Shown here: positions 3,859 to 36,698 of the stretch, one piece after another
How positions within the stretch are numbered: position 1 is the stretch's first letter
How the letters are laid out: every line of letters starts with the position of its first letter
Origin: a virus
Virus record (IMG/VR): IMGVR_UViG_3300037488_000208
Location: 1-37,439 of that record
DNA length: 37,439 bases
Reading direction: 5' to 3' (one strand)
Notes under the pieces: generated by a model
Told to the model about the DNA's origin: nothing
Database searches by the model: none
Seen by the model: only the letters and a program-made list of their open reading frames with translations
Made by a program: the position numbers and the translations under genes

Positions 3859-4118
3859 TTTTTTTCTCCTAACGCCACATCTGCGCAAATGCTTTGAACT
3901 GTTAAGGCTATGTTTTCAATTCCTGATTTCATTAATGCTTTGCGGTTATCTGTTAATTGCAGGGCGCATATTTCGTCGTAAATCTGTAAGCGAATTTGCG
4001 CTTCTAACACTTTAATCATTCTCTTAGGTGTATCCATATCACGACCTTCGGCAGTCTTTAATATCAAACGACCGTCCACGATTGCCCAATGGTTATCTTC
4101 TTTGCAAAATAGTTTCAT
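3855..4118 (-). CDS. Hypothetical protein
   Basis: An 87-residue protein (starts MKLFCKEDNHWAIVDGRLI) joined to the replication initiator gene by a TAATG junction and to the next gene by ATGA. The first 25 residues look like a short beta unit and the rest is helical (KRMIKVLEAQIRLQIYDEIC). No family is recognised. Its position directly after the initiator suggests a replication-related accessory role. Confidence 0.65.
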   Translation of the reverse strand: MKLFCKEDNHWAIVDGRLILKTAEGRDMDTPKRMIKVLEAQIRLQIYDEICALQLTDNRKALMKSGIENIALTVQSICADVALGEKK

Positions 4119-5092
4119 TACCTTTCCGCTTTCTCTTTGTATAGGTTTTGTGCTATGCGAAATGCATAACTCACTAAATCGTTTAAGTCTTTAGTTGCCG
4201 CTTCGTCAATCGCTAATAAGGCAATCCGACCAAACCGTTTTGTCATTTGACCTATTCGCGCTATGTCGCTTGACGATAGTTCGCGCGATTGAAGTTCTGA
4301 TACGTACCACACTGTAAGGGCGATACACCCGCCATTATCGTTAGCGTTATGTAATACATCCCATTCGTCTTCGATTAGGCGCGAGAGGTTCCAAGCGTTG
4401 ATTCCGTTTTTCCGCGCTTCCTCTAGGCGTAAAGAAACCCGCTCAACGGCTTTTGCGGCGCTTTTAACTCTAGGGCTAGGTGTAAGGTAGGGAACAGGGG
4501 TAAAAGTCTCGGCAATCGGCTTTTGAAGGCTCGTAATGGCAAGACCGCTAGAATCGGCTTTGGCGCTTTTTTCTTCCCCTATAAACAGGATTTCAGAATC
4601 ATTATCGGTTTTAACGATTTCTAAATTTGTACTCGTGGATGTAGTTACTTCTGTGTTCTGTATTCTGTCTTCTGTATTCTGTATTCTGTATTCTGGTCGT
4701 GTTATTAACGCGTTATTCCAATAATCATCAACTGGTTCAGCGTTGTTATCTGATACTGCGTGTTTCTCTCGATAACGCTTTTGCCTTTCTCTGAGACTTG
4801 CACGCTTCACCGCTACTTGTTCTTTACTTGTTTGATGAGTTAAATAATCGTGAATTTGCCAACCTTTTTCCTCACGTATCCACAAACCCATTTCTTCCAA
4901 TTCGTCTGTAGGTTTTTCGATTGCTTCATCATCCCGTAATCTCATATTGACCCATTGGTAAGATATAAAACCATCAGTTAAAAACTTTCCGCAATAACAG
5001 AGTGCGTGTATATGCAATCTGAACGCTAAATCGCTCAAACTAATAATCTTTGGGTGGTCTGGAAACGAGTCATCTATTTTTATCCAAGTCAT
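4118..5092 (-). CDS. Phage replication initiator / replisome organiser-like protein
   Basis: The 324-residue protein starts with WIKIDDSFPDHPKIISLSD, an N-terminal winged-helix pattern seen in phage replisome organisers (DnaD/lambda-O-like). A basic helix (KRASLRERQKRYREKH, about 98-113) follows. The middle is a low-complexity Thr/Ser/Asn linker with a doubled RIQNTE unit, and the C-terminal 100 residues are helical. No helicase or primase motif is present, so it probably loads host replication proteins. It overlaps the nuclease gene by ATGA (5089-5092). The linker DNA contains six tandem heptamers, reminiscent of an origin inside the lambda O gene. The family call is moderate. Confidence 0.65.
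   Translation of the reverse strand: MTWIKIDDSFPDHPKIISLSDLAFRLHIHALCYCGKFLTDGFISYQWVNMRLRDDEAIEKPTDELEEMGLWIREEKGWQIHDYLTHQTSKEQVAVKRASLRERQKRYREKHAVSDNNAEPVDDYWNNALITRPEYRIQNTEDRIQNTEVTTSTSTNLEIVKTDNDSEILFIGEEKSAKADSSGLAITSLQKPIAETFTPVPYLTPSPRVKSAAKAVERVSLRLEEARKNGINAWNLSRLIEDEWDVLHNANDNGGCIALTVWYVSELQSRELSSSDIARIGQMTKRFGRIALLAIDEAATKDLNDLVSYAFRIAQNLYKEKAER
4651..4692. repeat. Six tandem 7-bp repeats, possible iterons
   Basis: Six direct copies of CTGTNTT stand end to end; the fifth base reads g, a, c, a, a, a. They lie inside the replication initiator gene and encode two copies of a 7-residue unit (RIQNTE plus one). Regular repeats inside an initiator gene are how lambdoid phages carry their origin. 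Slippage in a disordered linker is the plain alternative. Confidence 0.6.
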
Positions 5093-5733
5093 CTGCCTCT
5101 GCCTTTACCTGCGCACTTGTCGCCATAGTAGGAACAATAAAGACTACAAAAGTTCGCATAGTTTTCTGGTTCTGGAATCTCCGTGCGACCTTTTACATCT
5201 TCTAACCAAGCGAGCGCTTCTAAAGCAATCGCTTCGTCATACGGTTCGGTATGAACTTTGATATCTCGTTCATCTCCGTCTCTAGGAATACCAACTAGAG
5301 ATACCGTCTTGACTGCTTCTCCGTTTTTGCTTAACAAGTAACCGTAAAGTTGTACTTGCCAGCGCTGTTGTGTTTTTGGAAAATCTTTTAGCCCCGCTTT
5401 CTTAGTAGTTTTCCAATCTACTACAGCGCCGATACTTGGAATGTACAAGTCGATGTGACCCATTAAATCCCCAAACGACACTTCGCGTTCTAGTTGATAT
5501 TCCTTATCCCAATCCATTTTGCTTATAGCGGTTTCAATAAGGGTATGAATAGCCGTACCCATTAACGCTGGAAGTTTGATAGTCGGATTTGTTTTTTCTT
5601 CTCCTTGTAGTGTAAACCAAACTTTTCTACGGCAACCGCCAATTGAAGATGGTCCTAACTTAACTTGCTGTGAACGTGGCTTGCTTTTTTCGTGCGCTGT
5701 AAGCGCCTTCATTAACAGTTCTTCTATTTCCAT
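5089..5733 (-). CDS. PD-(D/E)XK exonuclease, Cas4/RecB-like
   Basis: The 214-residue protein has a LGPSSIGGCRRKVWF N-terminus, GTAIHTLIE, then the nuclease core GHIDLYIP and VVDWKTTK (D and D-x-K), and later QVQLYGYLL. A first Cys near residue 34 and three C-terminal Cys (FCSLYCSYYGDKC) match the iron-sulfur cluster pattern of Cas4/AddB-type nucleases. It probably resects double-stranded DNA ends to feed RecT, as lambda Exo does for Bet. The RBS AAGGGATAAA precedes the ATG at 5733. It has only an ATGA overlap with the initiator gene. Confidence 0.88.
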   Translation of the reverse strand: MEIEELLMKALTAHEKSKPRSQQVKLGPSSIGGCRRKVWFTLQGEEKTNPTIKLPALMGTAIHTLIETAISKMDWDKEYQLEREVSFGDLMGHIDLYIPSIGAVVDWKTTKKAGLKDFPKTQQRWQVQLYGYLLSKNGEAVKTVSLVGIPRDGDERDIKVHTEPYDEAIALEALAWLEDVKGRTEIPEPENYANFCSLYCSYYGDKCAGKGRGR

Positions 5734-6429: not shown

Positions 6430-6755
6430 TATGCACTCCTTAATTGTCGTAGTTCAAATACATCTACCCAATCTGGGTGACGTTCAATTAGCAAACGCGA
6501 GTAATACGGCGCATAGTTATTATTTATCTTGAAATCTGAATTAGGGTCTTCAGTTTTCATCTGGTAGTTCCAACGTAGAACTTCCATAAGCATCTTAATT
6601 CCTACACGCTTGCGACCACGCAAGATTAAATCTGCTGCCATATTTTCTAGCGCGAGCGCCACCTGCGGATTAAGTCTGTGAAACTCCTCAAACTTTTCAG
6701 CAGGTCGCGGTTCGCGTGATAAGAAATCAAACTCTAATAAAAAAGCGTTACTCAT
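6429..6755 (-). CDS. Conserved phage hypothetical protein
   Basis: The 108-residue protein has a helical centre (NPQVALALENMAADLILRGR) and a C-terminal pattern (YAPYYSRLLIERHPDW) that I recognise from hypothetical proteins of many tailed phages. The function is unknown. It is coupled to RecT by an overlap at 6755 and to the next gene at 6429, so it may act with the RecT/exonuclease pair. Confidence 0.7.
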   Translation of the reverse strand: MSNAFLLEFDFLSREPRPAEKFEEFHRLNPQVALALENMAADLILRGRKRVGIKMLMEVLRWNYQMKTEDPNSDFKINNNYAPYYSRLLIERHPDWVDVFELRQLRSA

Positions 6756-7573
6756 TACACTAACACTTCTCTTGCGATATTAAACTGCGCACGTAAAGTA
6801 GTTACACCTTCACCTTCGCCGTTAGGAAACTCAATATCAAGTAACTCTTTACAAGACGCATACAAAGTTCTTAGCGTTTCAATATCGTTCACTCCCATAA
6901 TTTCGGAGAACGCATCTTGTAATACTTGAACCATTTCCGGTGTAGCGGCAGGAACAGTTGCTATTACTTTTTCTGGAATAGAAACCGTTTCAGTTGAAGT
7001 CGGTACAACTTCTCGTACCGCTTGAACTGGTTGTACGTCTGCCTGAGCCATTTCTTCTGCGGTATAGATACCTGACAAGTCGTTAGGGAACGCCTTGCGT
7101 AGTGCTAGGGATTCGGCGCACTTTGCCAACATAACGTCAGGCATTTTTTTCCAGATAGGATTATTAGGAACTGCGTACGAATCGAACTTGGCAACTGCGT
7201 ACAAAGGCTCACGAAAGTCTTTGTGCATAACGCCTACACGCGCCGCAACTGGCGGTGTGGTTTCTAACCAAACGTCAATCCATTCGCCGTCTTGTCCGCA
7301 CCAATGTGGACCAACTTGTCCTGCGTATTTGTCAGAACGATTAGCGATAATGCGAAGTCCGTCAATACTTGCTTGGATTGTATATTTGCCACCTCTCGCA
7401 ATCATGTAAAGTTGCCGTGCGAATGGGTCAAGCCCTGTGCGTTGTGCGTAGTGTAGAAAGACAGCAAGTTCTGCTTTAGGTGCATCTGCTAATCCAATTT
7501 GCTTTAGTGCGGCAAGTTGGGTGTCAGCCCACCAAGTTTGCTCCTGATTAACTTTTAGTATTGCATTAGTCAT
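6755..7573 (-). CDS. recT: RecT/Bet-family single-strand annealing protein
   Basis: The 272-residue protein carries the Bet/RecT core: LAVFLHYAQRTGLDPFARQL, the Y-T-I-Q-A-S-I-D-G-L-R segment, then WKKMPDVMLAKCAESLALRK and FPNDLSGIYTAEEM. It anneals complementary single strands and, with the PD-(D/E)XK nuclease and SSB encoded downstream, forms a two-component phage recombination system. The C-terminal 100 residues are a variable linker and helix. GGGAGATAAATAA precedes the ATG at 7573. Length is normal for the family. Confidence 0.95.
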   Translation of the reverse strand: MTNAILKVNQEQTWWADTQLAALKQIGLADAPKAELAVFLHYAQRTGLDPFARQLYMIARGGKYTIQASIDGLRIIANRSDKYAGQVGPHWCGQDGEWIDVWLETTPPVAARVGVMHKDFREPLYAVAKFDSYAVPNNPIWKKMPDVMLAKCAESLALRKAFPNDLSGIYTAEEMAQADVQPVQAVREVVPTSTETVSIPEKVIATVPAATPEMVQVLQDAFSEIMGVNDIETLRTLYASCKELLDIEFPNGEGEGVTTLRAQFNIAREVLV

Positions 7574-8155: not shown

Positions 8156-9154
8156 TTATGAGATTAGGTTAAGCGCCTTATTCTTAAACCTATCGCCTAG
8201 CCCTGTTACTATCTTTTCTGCGCGAGCAACATCTGGGTTTGTTGAGCGAACTGGCTTTGCCCAATCCGCATACTCAACGATTGTGTTGTATGCCGCCCAC
8301 TTTGTATTTGCGATATTTGCCTGTGTTGGCGCTTTCCATAATCCCATTAGCGTTCCCCGTGCGGTTTCCGCAAGGTTGCGAGTACGGTCAGAATCTTCGT
8401 CAATCGGTACAAGCGTTTCTATTAACGTTGTGAATTGCTTATCCGTCATAGATTGAGCGAGAAGTTTTTCTGCTTCTTTCTCAAACTCTTCCACGTACTT
8501 GAAAGTGATTCCTAAAGTTTCTCTTGCGAGTTGAACTTTATTTCCTACCTTTGGTGTATGGCGCCAAGAAAAATTACTTTCTGCTTGCTTGATAGCCATT
8601 GATAAAGTGTTCTGACATACAACACGGATAGGTGTAACCATTATCTGAAAGGAACTTGAACCATCGTGTGTGTTCCAAGCCATTAGATAAAGGTTGATTG
8701 GGTCAATACCACCAACGTTTAACCCTTCGGGCATTTTCATAGTCATAAAAACTTTACGACCATTGTTAATACTTCCCGCAGTTTCAAATACAGCACCAGA
8801 TTCGTCAGCAATATCATTCAGAAAAGAGAAGGCTTCTGAATTTTGAACTGGTGTATATCGTGAACCAACTACTCCAAGCGCTTCTGGAATTAAAGTCTTT
8901 GGATTGTAACGATAAGTCATAAACTTATCGGTTGAAGAAATGTATTGGTCAATCTCCTTGCCATTATCATCAACAAGGTGAACGCCAACAGGTTTTTCTG
9001 ATTTCAATACTTGCCAATCTAAGTACGCTGTTTGAAGTGCTTCCTGTGCAGATAGCGCTCCAGTTGTAACCGTACCTAACTTGTGCCAAGCAACTTCTCT
9101 TGCTGAAAAGAAGGCTGTTGTGCCATCTTCAAACTGCTCTAGTGCATGTGCCAT
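8156..9154 (-). CDS. DUF932 phage/plasmid-like protein
   Basis: The ATG at 9154 is used because AAGGGATAAAC lies upstream and family members start this way (MAHALEQFEDGTTAFFSARE). The 332-residue protein matches the DUF932 (TIGR03299) pattern: AWHKLG near residue 23, a region with VVGSRYTPVQNSEAF, then RVVCQNTLSMAI, and a C-terminal helical part. The family is common on plasmids and phages. Its biochemical role is not known, though early expression is typical. It starts by TAATG after the preceding gene and ends at a strong hairpin, so it should be well expressed. Confidence 0.88.
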   Translation of the reverse strand: MAHALEQFEDGTTAFFSAREVAWHKLGTVTTGALSAQEALQTAYLDWQVLKSEKPVGVHLVDDNGKEIDQYISSTDKFMTYRYNPKTLIPEALGVVGSRYTPVQNSEAFSFLNDIADESGAVFETAGSINNGRKVFMTMKMPEGLNVGGIDPINLYLMAWNTHDGSSSFQIMVTPIRVVCQNTLSMAIKQAESNFSWRHTPKVGNKVQLARETLGITFKYVEEFEKEAEKLLAQSMTDKQFTTLIETLVPIDEDSDRTRNLAETARGTLMGLWKAPTQANIANTKWAAYNTIVEYADWAKPVRSTNPDVARAEKIVTGLGDRFKNKALNLIS

Positions 9155-9378
9155 TATTTGTTTATCCCTTCGATATTTTGTTTGTTTGGACAGTTTCCAA
9201 ACAACTGCATTAATAACAATCCAACATTTTTGCCTTGTATTATCCACTCTTTATAGAAGCGAACCCACTCACTTCCTACTGGGTGATAAATTAAACATTG
9301 ACAAGGAGATGTTTTTATCTCTTGAACTGCTACCTTTTGTGCTTCTATTTGTTCTTGTGGCCATATATTTTTGCTCAT
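9154..9378 (-). CDS. Hypothetical protein
   Basis: A 74-residue protein (starts MSKNIWPQEQIEAQKVAVQE) with GGGGTAAAT upstream and a TAATG junction to the DUF932 gene. It has a CQC pair and a Trp/Tyr-rich centre (GSEWVRFYKEWI). No family is recognised. Coupling to DUF932 suggests joint expression. Confidence 0.6.
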   Translation of the reverse strand: MSKNIWPQEQIEAQKVAVQEIKTSPCQCLIYHPVGSEWVRFYKEWIIQGKNVGLLLMQLFGNCPNKQNIEGINK

Positions 9379-10995: not shown

Positions 10996-11047
10996 CTGAT
11001 GAGGCTCATCAGTAGCGTCGTTCAACGCCAGACACCCTTGCGGGTGT
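10996..11047 (-). terminator. Two hairpins between early genes
   Basis: CTGATGA/TCATCAG (10996-11012) has a 3-base loop and ACACCC/GGGTGT (11032-11047) a TTGC loop. They lie just after the 59-aa gene stop on the minus strand and before the acidic-protein gene. Partial termination or mRNA end protection is likely. The second shares flanks (AGACAC ... GTGTTTCG) with the hairpin at 11824-11850. Confidence 0.5.
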
Positions 11048-11054
11048 TTCGCCT

Positions 11055-11552: not shown

Positions 11553-11765
11553 TTAGTTGATGTTTTCCTTTGCGAAATCGTTTATCATTTCTTTATCTGT
11601 TGAATACTCTTCGTGATACCAAGCAATTATTTCGTTTAGCATTTCTGATACTTTTTCAATAGCGATATTTGTTAATACAAGTTCTTCGTGCTTTTTGTTT
11701 GGAAGTGAATCTATTAACGCGCTTTTGATTCTGTATAAGTCACCTGCGTTTAGTTTTGATTGCAT
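11553..11765 (-). CDS. Hypothetical protein, first gene of early operon
   Basis: A 70-residue helical protein (starts MQSKLNAGDLYRIKSALIDS) with AAGGGAGATACAAA upstream. It is the first protein gene of the leftward early cluster and follows two tandem hairpins in its leader. No family is recognised. Confidence 0.6.
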   Translation of the reverse strand: MQSKLNAGDLYRIKSALIDSLPNKKHEELVLTNIAIEKVSEMLNEIIAWYHEEYSTDKEMINDFAKENIN

Positions 11766-11801
11766 TTTGTATCTCCCTTTGTAATTGGCTGTTCTCGTCA
11801 G

Positions 11802-11850
11802 TAACAGTTCGCCTAACTGTTAGACACCGCGACTTTTAGTGCCGCGGTGT
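11802..11850 (-). promoter_or_regulatory. Tandem hairpins in early-operon leader
   Basis: TAACAGTT/AACTGTTA (11802-11822, 5-base loop) and ACACCGCG/CGCGGTGT (11824-11850, 11-base loop) stand side by side, about 37 bases before the 70-aa gene. They could end the structured RNA proposed upstream, or regulate the early mRNA. Confidence 0.5.
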
Positions 11851-11879
11851 TTCGATTCTTGTAACTGGTTAAGGCTGGT

Positions 11880-12420
11880 TCGCCATCTTCTATTAACTTT
11901 TATTTGCATTGCGCTAAGTCGTGAAGTCTGTATCGCTCGCCTTGCGGGTCGTCGCGCTTTTTGACTATAGGTACTTGGTACCGTGCGGTGCTTTATTTTG
12001 TTTAGAACCGTTACTTGTAAAAGTAATCCGTTTGTTTCTACCTAAAGTTGCTGGCAACTTGTGGGCTTTTACTTTGTCGGCTGGCTACGTGTTGAAATCA
12101 ATCGTGTTACGACTAACTGATTTCGTGCCTTCTCTATTTAGTTTGATTGGCGTTAGGCTTCCGTCACCCGATTCAGATTCCCTTGGGATTCTTTATGTTC
12201 TGAATCGGTTCACCGTAGTGGCTAAACCTTTCTTGGCTTTTTTCTCCCGCTTTGCTCGCCTTGGCGATACCCTTGCGCTGAGTGCCTTTCGTTCGTACTA
12301 TCTCAATATAGAGGTAAAAGCGTTACGAGCGCCAATAGGCTCAATCTAGGCGCGTCATACGCTCAAAATAGGGTCGAAATCGCCCGTATGAGCCCCGTAC
12401 GCGGTCGCGGGGAATCGGGG
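11880..12420 (-). ncRNA. Candidate large structured noncoding RNA
   Basis: No convincing gene lies between 11766 and 12530, but hairpins are dense. GGTAC/GTACC is at 11970-11982, TTACTT/AAGTAA at 12011-12026, and AAGTTG/CAACTT at 12045-12060. GAAATCA/TGATTTC at 12094-12124 encloses TCGT/ACGA. A perfect 10-bp stem pairs 12168-12177 with 12199-12208. CATACG/CGTATG at 12356-12390 encloses a smaller stem. On the minus strand a CAC-UACG-GUG hairpin has a UNCG loop inside GGUU/AACC. CAAGGCGAGC occurs twice. Leftward transcription is inferred from strand composition like that of the neighbouring leftward genes. Size and phage setting recall GOLLD/ROOL RNAs, but I cannot show homology. Confidence 0.4.
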
Positions 12421-12493
12421 AAGGGTAAAGGGTAGGGAAGCAAAATATGCCGCCGCATTTCCAGTAACGGTAACAAAATAAATACAAATTGAT

Positions 12494-12530
12494 TTGACTT
12501 GTAAGCCTGTAACTCAATTACCATTACGGT
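12494..12530 (+). promoter_or_regulatory. Candidate promoter for leaderless rightward gene
   Basis: TTGACT (12494-12499) and TACCAT (12519-12524), 19 bases apart, put the start of transcription at or next to the ATG at 12531. No Shine-Dalgarno is present before that ATG. A leaderless transcript, common in actinobacteria, would explain both facts. Confidence 0.45.
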
Positions 12531-12743
12531 ATGTCATATAGCCAAATTGAAATCCGTTGCGGCGGTCTTGTTGTAACACTTAGCACTGAACTTGTTTATC
12601 CAGATGCTATGGACGATTTATGCACACGCACATTGAATCTATTCAAAGAAGGTGCGGCTGTAGCAAAAGAGAACGGTGTTGATATTAGCAATATGCGTTT
12701 GATAACTTCTGATTACGGTGAGGACTATGAGGAAGAAGATTAG
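12531..12743 (+). CDS. Hypothetical protein, the only rightward gene
   Basis: A 70-residue acidic protein (starts MSYSQIEIRCGGLVVTLSTE) with a beta hairpin, a helix (DDLCTRTLNLFKEGAAVAKE) and an acidic end (EDYEEED). Composition is protein-like. It lacks an RBS and probably is translated leaderless. It converges with the metallophosphoesterase gene, overlapping its stop by 4 bases. Its lone orientation next to the noncoding region suggests a regulatory or early-establishment role. No family is recognised. Confidence 0.6.
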   Translation: MSYSQIEIRCGGLVVTLSTELVYPDAMDDLCTRTLNLFKEGAAVAKENGVDISNMRLITSDYGEDYEEED

Positions 12744-35621: not shown

Positions 35622-36698
35622 CTAACGTAACTTATCAAGAATATTGTAACGAATTGCATCGCCAATCGCTTTAGCCATAAGTGGTGGAACGCTTCTCCCA
35701 ATACGTTCCCATCTTTGAGGGAACGTTCCTGTTAATACAAAATCAGCAGGGAATGAACTTAAAGCACGTAATTCAATTAGCGTGAACTTGCGCTTTTGTA
35801 ATGGGTGCGTCACGCTGGCTGCTCCTACAATTCCACCTGTAGCAGTTATAGTTCCAACAGGCTTATCAAGACTTGGCTTAACAAGTTGAAAATACTTCTC
35901 GCTTTGTTCTCCTGTTTGCAATCTATCCCATTGTGCGCCTACTGCGTAACGGTCAAGAGTAATATCAAATCCTGTTTCAGGGTCGTGCGTAATCTGTTCT
36001 GCCTTAACATCTATTATGTCTTTTAGCACGAAACGCTTTTGTAACGGCGTTGGAAACGCAGGTGTAACACCGTAACGCTCTGCTAAATCATTACGTACTC
36101 CAATAATGATAAGTCTTTGTCGCGCTTGCGGTACGCCTAACCAACTTGCATCAAGAATCTTAGCGCTAACAATATAACCAGCAGATTCAAGTTCAGCAAC
36201 AATCTCCTTGAAATATCCAATGGCTTTTCCTTTTACCAAGCCTGTAACATTTTCTGCAATAAACACCTTTGGTTGTACGCCTTTAATCAAACGTGAATAC
36301 TCAAAAAACAAGTCGTCAGCGCGTTGGTTTGTATCGCTGTACTTCTTGTCTTTACCCCAAGCCTTCTCTCTACTTCCAGCCATAGAGAAAGAACTACAAG
36401 GGGGTGAGCCTTCAAACAAATCAAGTTCGCCAGCCTTCATACCGATTTCATCAAGAAGTTGTTCGGCAGTTATCTCTCTTATATCCTGAGGATTGAGGAT
36501 AACATTATCGTGATTGAGTTCATAAGTTGCTCGCGCTTCTGGTACAAATTCATTAGCCCAAAGGATTTCATAACCAGCCATTTCAAATCCCAAGCAAGAG
36601 CCACCGCAACCAGAGAAGGTACTAATCATTTTGTAACCGTTAGTATTTTTCACTTCAGCAACTTCAGCCATAGTTGGAATAACGTAATCAGGATTCAT
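35622..36698 (-). CDS. dcm: C5-cytosine DNA methyltransferase with Arg in motif X; candidate carboxymethyltransferase
   Basis: The 358-residue enzyme has all C5-MTase motifs: I STFSGCGGSCLGFEMAG (26-42), IV EGSPPCSSFS (catalytic Cys 101), VI AENVTG (148-153), VIII GVPQARQRLIIIG (188-200), a target domain at about 205-300, IX RALSSFPADF (311-320), and X ERIGRSVPPLM (331-341). Motif X normally reads G-N-S/A-V; here Arg335 (AGA, 35696-35694) replaces Asn. In M.MpeI the matching Asn to Lys change permits use of carboxy-SAM, giving 5-carboxymethylcytosine. The CmoA-like gene in the same coupled operon could supply carboxy-SAM. ATGA overlap with the FmdB-like gene. C5-MTase call sure; altered chemistry inferred. 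Confidence 0.93.
   Translation of the reverse strand: MNPDYVIPTMAEVAEVKNTNGYKMISTFSGCGGSCLGFEMAGYEILWANEFVPEARATYELNHDNVILNPQDIREITAEQLLDEIGMKAGELDLFEGSPPCSSFSMAGSREKAWGKDKKYSDTNQRADDLFFEYSRLIKGVQPKVFIAENVTGLVKGKAIGYFKEIVAELESAGYIVSAKILDASWLGVPQARQRLIIIGVRNDLAERYGVTPAFPTPLQKRFVLKDIIDVKAEQITHDPETGFDITLDRYAVGAQWDRLQTGEQSEKYFQLVKPSLDKPVGTITATGGIVGAASVTHPLQKRKFTLIELRALSSFPADFVLTGTFPQRWERIGRSVPPLMAKAIGDAIRYNILDKLR

Follow-up and report, generated by a model that had tools for sequence, protein, structure and literature searches.

A probable large structured noncoding RNA with a predicted hammerhead-made 3' end in a lineage of uncultured phages

Does a hairpin-rich, gene-free stretch of phage DNA encode a large RNA and, if so, of what kind? 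The stretch in question is an interval of 765 bases (11766-12530) in the record of an uncultured water phage, analysed here over its whole length of 37,439 bases (the window). Neighbouring genes on both sides run leftward, the exception being a small plus-strand ORF at 12531-12743. We know of very few large, highly structured RNA classes in bacteria or phages, and phage intergenic regions frequently carry structured DNA elements. Based on conservation, covariation, ribozyme motifs and synteny, we consider it quite probable that the interval encodes a phage noncoding RNA of ~465 nt after self-cleavage at a hammerhead ribozyme, HHR-A, and that this is a stable, free-standing structured RNA; its transcription, cleavage, stability and role are what we infer from that evidence. 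The features lie as follows.

12531-12743, plus strand: divergent small ORF, 70 aa, which adjoins the exonuclease gene in relatives (tblastn)
12291-12530, minus strand: interval upstream of the RNA, reaching to the divergent small ORF and presumed to hold the promoter
12129-12300, minus strand: 5' domain of the RNA, with hairpins P1 (12286-12235) and P2 (12225-12153), from covariation in alignments A3 and A5
12094-12124, minus strand: P3 hairpin GAAAUCA/UGAUUUC, a two-level hairpin read from the sequences
11871-12131, minus strand: core domain, with closing helix AAGGC (12131-12127) / GCCUU (11875-11871), from partner permutations
11868-11998, minus strand: 3' core, with hairpins E2 (11982-11970) and E3, from covariation in alignments A2 and A4
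11783-11857, minus strand: type II hammerhead HHR-A (Rfam RF02276, 37.3 bits, E 1.5e-5)
11553-11765, minus strand: small ORF, 70 aa, its ATG 17 nt past the end of HHR-A and preceded by AAAGGGAG
10996-11054, minus strand: type II hammerhead HHR-B (Rfam RF02276, 31.0 bits, E 1e-4)

For comparison we used 53 related phage loci from IMG/VR, retrieved via the DUF932 gene (8156-9247), and added more members of the RNA family by pattern and exonuclease searches. Relatives of the RNA occur in ~30 distinct uncultured-phage loci, all of them metagenomic contigs, with nhmmer E values from 1e-126 to 1e-15 (profile of seven sequences). Similarity starts at 12272-12291 by both nhmmer and blastn, and the blastn similarity extends to the hammerhead. 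Judged by this similarity, the conserved RNA is the minus strand from ~12290 to 11783, and 12290-12530 lies upstream, outside it. The 765-base giant noncoding RNA proposed in the first-pass annotation is thus retained as a structured noncoding RNA, at a size of ~0.46-0.5 kb and not 0.77 kb. A long inverted repeat, I1 (11994-12020 with 12458-12484), was left out of the structure because one of its arms lies upstream of the conserved RNA.

The same setting is repeated in relatives: exonuclease gene (phrog_284), small divergent ORF, RNA, hammerhead and small ORFs. The divergent ORF at 12531-12743, which belongs to no known family, is found by tblastn at 33-71% identity in 48 loci. A sigma-70 scan of the promoter region in the window and its relatives found no clear or consistent site. 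Five more distant phages (L083, L101, L103, L112 and L116) have the same exonuclease and divergent ORF, and in these a strong promoter-like site (TTGACA/TATAGA) lies ~40 nt from the divergent ORF, oriented in the RNA direction; no type II hammerhead was found within 2.4-2.6 kb past that site.

A protein-coding reading of the interval would rest on a 142-codon plus-strand frame at 11921-12349, which is open in the window and gives tblastn fragments in the two closest relatives. However, these fragments are broken and track DNA similarity, and the 142-aa product has no Pfam or PHROG match. In relatives the longest stop-free run shrinks to 37-100 codons and shifts between frames and strands, which already refutes the gene reading there. 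The frame had been marked out for a check of conserved protein reading, and such a reading is not kept in relatives. We regard a gene at this position as scarcely credible.

The minus strand folds to -211.8 kcal/mol compared with a shuffled mean of -181.4 (z -4.7; 0 of 20 dinucleotide shuffles as good), and the plus-strand fold is weaker against its dinucleotide shuffles (z -2.7). The stems named in the first-pass annotation were found where it had placed them, including the two-level hairpin at 12094-12124 and the stem at 12168-12208, in which CCGATTCAGA (12208-12199) pairs with TCTGAATCGG (12177-12168) over a perfect 10 bp. A tight 8-bp reading of AAGUUGCCAGCAACUU was rejected; it is absent in L001 and L002, both of which conserve the letters GCCAGCA/ACCAGCA in its place.

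To analyze covariation, we used MAFFT alignments built from sequence only and unfitted to structure. Within the 5' domain (P1 and P2), 31 cells changed on both sides among the 7 sequences of A3, and the 11 sequences of A5 gave 46 doubly changed cells compared with 13.7 when shuffled, with a covariation score of 0.477 against 0.185 (reached in 0 of 500 shuffles). The 3' core (E2 and E3) yielded 33 such cells in the 10 sequences of A2 and 61, compared with 20.7 shuffled, in the 19 sequences of A4, where the score was 0.401 against 0.117 (again 0 of 500). Controls with the partners slid by 1-3 columns lost the signal in every case. Compensatory changes, which the first-pass annotation had proposed seeking in aligned related phages, are thus present in both the 5' domain and the 3' core.

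We picked the helices by eye, using the same sequences and their foldings, which biases the slid and shuffled controls in their favor; held-out matches to covariance models are therefore the better check. Model R2, built on the 5' domain, retrieved held-out L041-L043 at E 1e-18 to 1e-21 and also held-out L227 and L233 at E 1e-6 to 1e-7. Model R1, built on the 3' core, retrieved held-out L233 (1e-21), L227 (1e-19), L251, L248, L250 and L009. In L233 and L227 the R2 matches lie just upstream of the R1 matches on the same strand. Since both loci were fetched by a 16-base pattern inside the R1 region, R1 is not wholly independent for them; R2 is independent. Three other loci (L246, L254 and L256) were hit by a pattern search and gave no match to the model.

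Each domain carries its own conserved elements. P2 contains an invariant internal loop, GUGAA/GUGA (12213-12209 / 12167-12164), and an apical AAUCCCAAGGGAA. Most of the inner P1 helix, which reads GGUUCG/CGAACC in L001, lacks pairing in the window itself. At the P3 position, L001, L002, L022 and L010 have another stem, changed in sequence but still complementary. Hairpin E3 carries the conserved CGCGANGACC...CGAGCGA, followed by AAUAAAAGUNAA (11904-11893). The closing helix of the core is long-range (~255 nt) and covaries in relatives (GGAGU/ACUUC, GAAGU/ACUUC, GGGAU/AUCCC and AUGGA/UCCAU); the observed pairing was reached by 11 of 20000 partner permutations, with marker windows chosen by eye. 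Additionally, the cores at L001 3962-4200, L047 4720-4964 and L187 9571-9797 hold an inserted hairpin module with the conserved loop UGUUACACGA or a near form of it. The stems of this module vary (CCGAAC/GUUCGG, CCAAAC/GUUUGG, CCUGAA/UUCAGG), and L187 has two such hairpins.

These helices bear on whether the interval is instead a structured DNA element, such as a replication origin or packaging site, or a set of chance hairpins. A replication initiation gene does lie in the same arm as the RNA (4118-5092). However, the helices covary across many loci with the long-range pairing kept, and a same-strand catalytic RNA motif closes the element, which makes a DNA element or chance hairpins very improbable. 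Wobble counts (G-U against A-C) were mixed between alignments, at 15 against 6 in A5 and 7 against 14 in A4, so we assign the strand from the ribozymes and the direction of the genes.

Two tandem hairpins at 11802-11850 had previously been taken for a terminator. They are actually stems III (GAAACACCGCG...CGCGGUGUC) and I of a type II hammerhead (RF02276), and HHR-A covers exactly both. Its score is barely above the gathering score of 37, and that of HHR-B is below the Rfam cut-off; core nucleotides are intact in both. An Rfam scan of the whole window at default gathering thresholds missed the two hammerheads, and short-stretch E-value searches found them. A motif scan identified the invariant core CUGANGA ... 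GAAA ... NUH with three helices and an open stem II. It predicts that HHR-A cleaves after C17 (position 11823), at 11823|11822, and HHR-B at 11031|11030.

Cleavage in vitro is established for type II hammerheads, as is cleavage in E. coli for expressed tandem hammerheads from A. tumefaciens (PMC3088659). A pseudoknot between loop I and the 3' tail and an arrangement in tandem arrays are both known for the class (PMC3088659). HHR-A and HHR-B resemble it in the intact core, in having stem II open and stems I and III closed, in the tandem arrangement and in the pseudoknot, which is GGC/GCC in HHR-A. In contrast to the known class, HHR-A has a stem III loop, CACUAAAAG, conserved in many relatives, and it terminates a large structured RNA. 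Our literature search, whose coverage was incomplete, turned up no large structured RNA that ends in a type II hammerhead; given that coverage, this absence is weak evidence of novelty.

The CACUAAAAG loop (within 11823-11853) would stay with the upstream RNA in the predicted cleavage. Many phages conserve it, in contrast to the variable loops of the other hammerheads. UAAAAGU turns up again within the RNA core (11904-11893), and the conserved loop and the recurring string may share a binding partner or contact.

Across the 53 related loci the motif scan found 101 hammerheads on the gene strand and 0 on the opposite strand. At least one same-strand hammerhead was present in 49 of the 53, two or more in 38, and often there were two to five; five dinucleotide shuffles of all 53 loci yielded 0. 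With 49 of 53 loci positive and none in the shuffles, the ribozymes are general to this phage lineage. In 33 loci, 338-941 nt separate the divergent ORF from the first hammerhead, and the sense frames within that span are mostly short. Thus, the earlier suggestion of a leftward, large structured noncoding RNA is well supported by compensatory changes, the lack of a conserved protein and same-strand ribozymes.

We propose that transcription would proceed leftward from a point between the divergent ORF and 12290, heading a run of small genes, and that the RNA would fold into the 5' domain and the core closed by the long-range helix. HHR-A would then cleave the nascent transcript between 11823 and 11822. 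The released RNA would end in the 9-bp stem III hairpin with loop CACUAAAAG, where a 2',3'-cyclic phosphate is expected. The downstream mRNA would carry a 5'-hydroxyl and start with the short stem I hairpin ahead of the ribosome-binding site of the next ORF. This ORF, at 11553-11765, would be the first gene of the predicted cleaved-off mRNA; it has no relatives by tblastn and no protein family match. HHR-B would cut again between 11031 and 11030, separating the following genes. Most likely, the released RNA is stable and functions by itself as a structured RNA.

The strongest rival holds that the RNA is not independent and is instead a cis-acting 5' leader, like a riboswitch or aptazyme, which responds to a signal by adjusting hammerhead cleavage and thereby expression of the small genes behind it. 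A ribozyme 17 nt ahead of a start codon would suit such a role, as would an RNA that heads the gene run in most relatives. However, other genes of these phages are also separated by similar hammerheads that have no such RNA ahead of them, and in L227 and L233 the RNA occurs without a hammerhead directly after it. Additionally, the RNA is conserved while the first downstream ORF in the window has no relatives. A leader is therefore unlikely, and we favor the free-standing RNA. The two loci without a following hammerhead indicate that release by the ribozyme is not universal.

Is the RNA a member of a catalogued family? In Rfam 15, searched with the window region and two sets of five relatives, only Hammerhead_II matches at significant E values; matches to PsrR1, snoR98, freshwater-2 and FMR1-AS1 fell far below their own cut-offs. 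The first-pass annotation had likened the RNA to GOLLD and ROOL, and the likeness stands in size and phage setting. The possibility of a diverged member of either family draws on these and on a conserved 3' core with a variable 5' region, as in GOLLD (PMC12286853). The Rfam models of GOLLD and ROOL, however, gave no match up to E 10 for the window region and the first five of these relatives, nor up to E 1 for the other five. GOLLD and ROOL usually lie near tRNA islands (PMC12286853), and we found no tRNA genes in the window or in 22 related loci. Membership is thus unsupported, and descent from either family has a very small chance of being right.

Compared with GOLLD (RF02032), the present RNA is likewise large, phage-encoded, ornate and noncoding, with its 3' part conserved and its 5' part variable, but it ends 3' in a hammerhead, has about half the length, matches no model and has no tRNA neighbourhood. 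ROOL, a large noncoding RNA from phages or prophages, is similar in length (659 nt for the one that has been solved), but it lies near tRNA islands and has no reported ribozyme, and the present RNA has no covariance-model match to it. Our best reading is that the RNA is comparable in kind to GOLLD and ROOL and unrelated to them in sequence; since no catalogued family matches the RNA body, we read it as a new class of large phage noncoding RNA.

The fuller proposal, to which we give about an even chance, is a new ornate class of large phage RNA with a hammerhead-made 3' end that works as a free-standing machine in a lineage whose gene runs are processed by serial hammerheads. By analogy, such a machine might be, for example, a homo-oligomer like GOLLD or ROOL, or a host-takeover RNA. 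A separate large RNA class would then stand beside GOLLD and ROOL, with ~30 relatives, a predicted defined 3' end, covarying domains and invariant internal loops, and phage hammerheads would gain a concrete predicted job in maturing a noncoding RNA and cutting a gene run.

A DNA search of an isolated-phage collection gave no match. A pattern scan of genome contigs returned 18 matches, close to the estimated chance number, and the two that matched the RNA profile reached only E 0.04-0.06. Terminase and exonuclease searches found no close isolate, every match being below 60% identity. The best exonuclease match was Actinomycetia phage DSL-LC01 (40% identity), and DUF932 relatives are mostly actinobacteriophages; from these sequence matches the host is likely actinobacterial.

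In L004 (7157-7232), L006, L007 and L017-L020, hammerheads near the DUF932 gene have long stem III extensions with a shared GGAAGU...UUUUUUAAUUCC insert. Lastly, family matches in the window include a C5 cytosine DNA methylase (35622-36698), an asparagine-synthase-like protein (208-1041), a RecT protein (6755-7573) and a PD-(D/E)XK/Cas4-like exonuclease (5089-5733).
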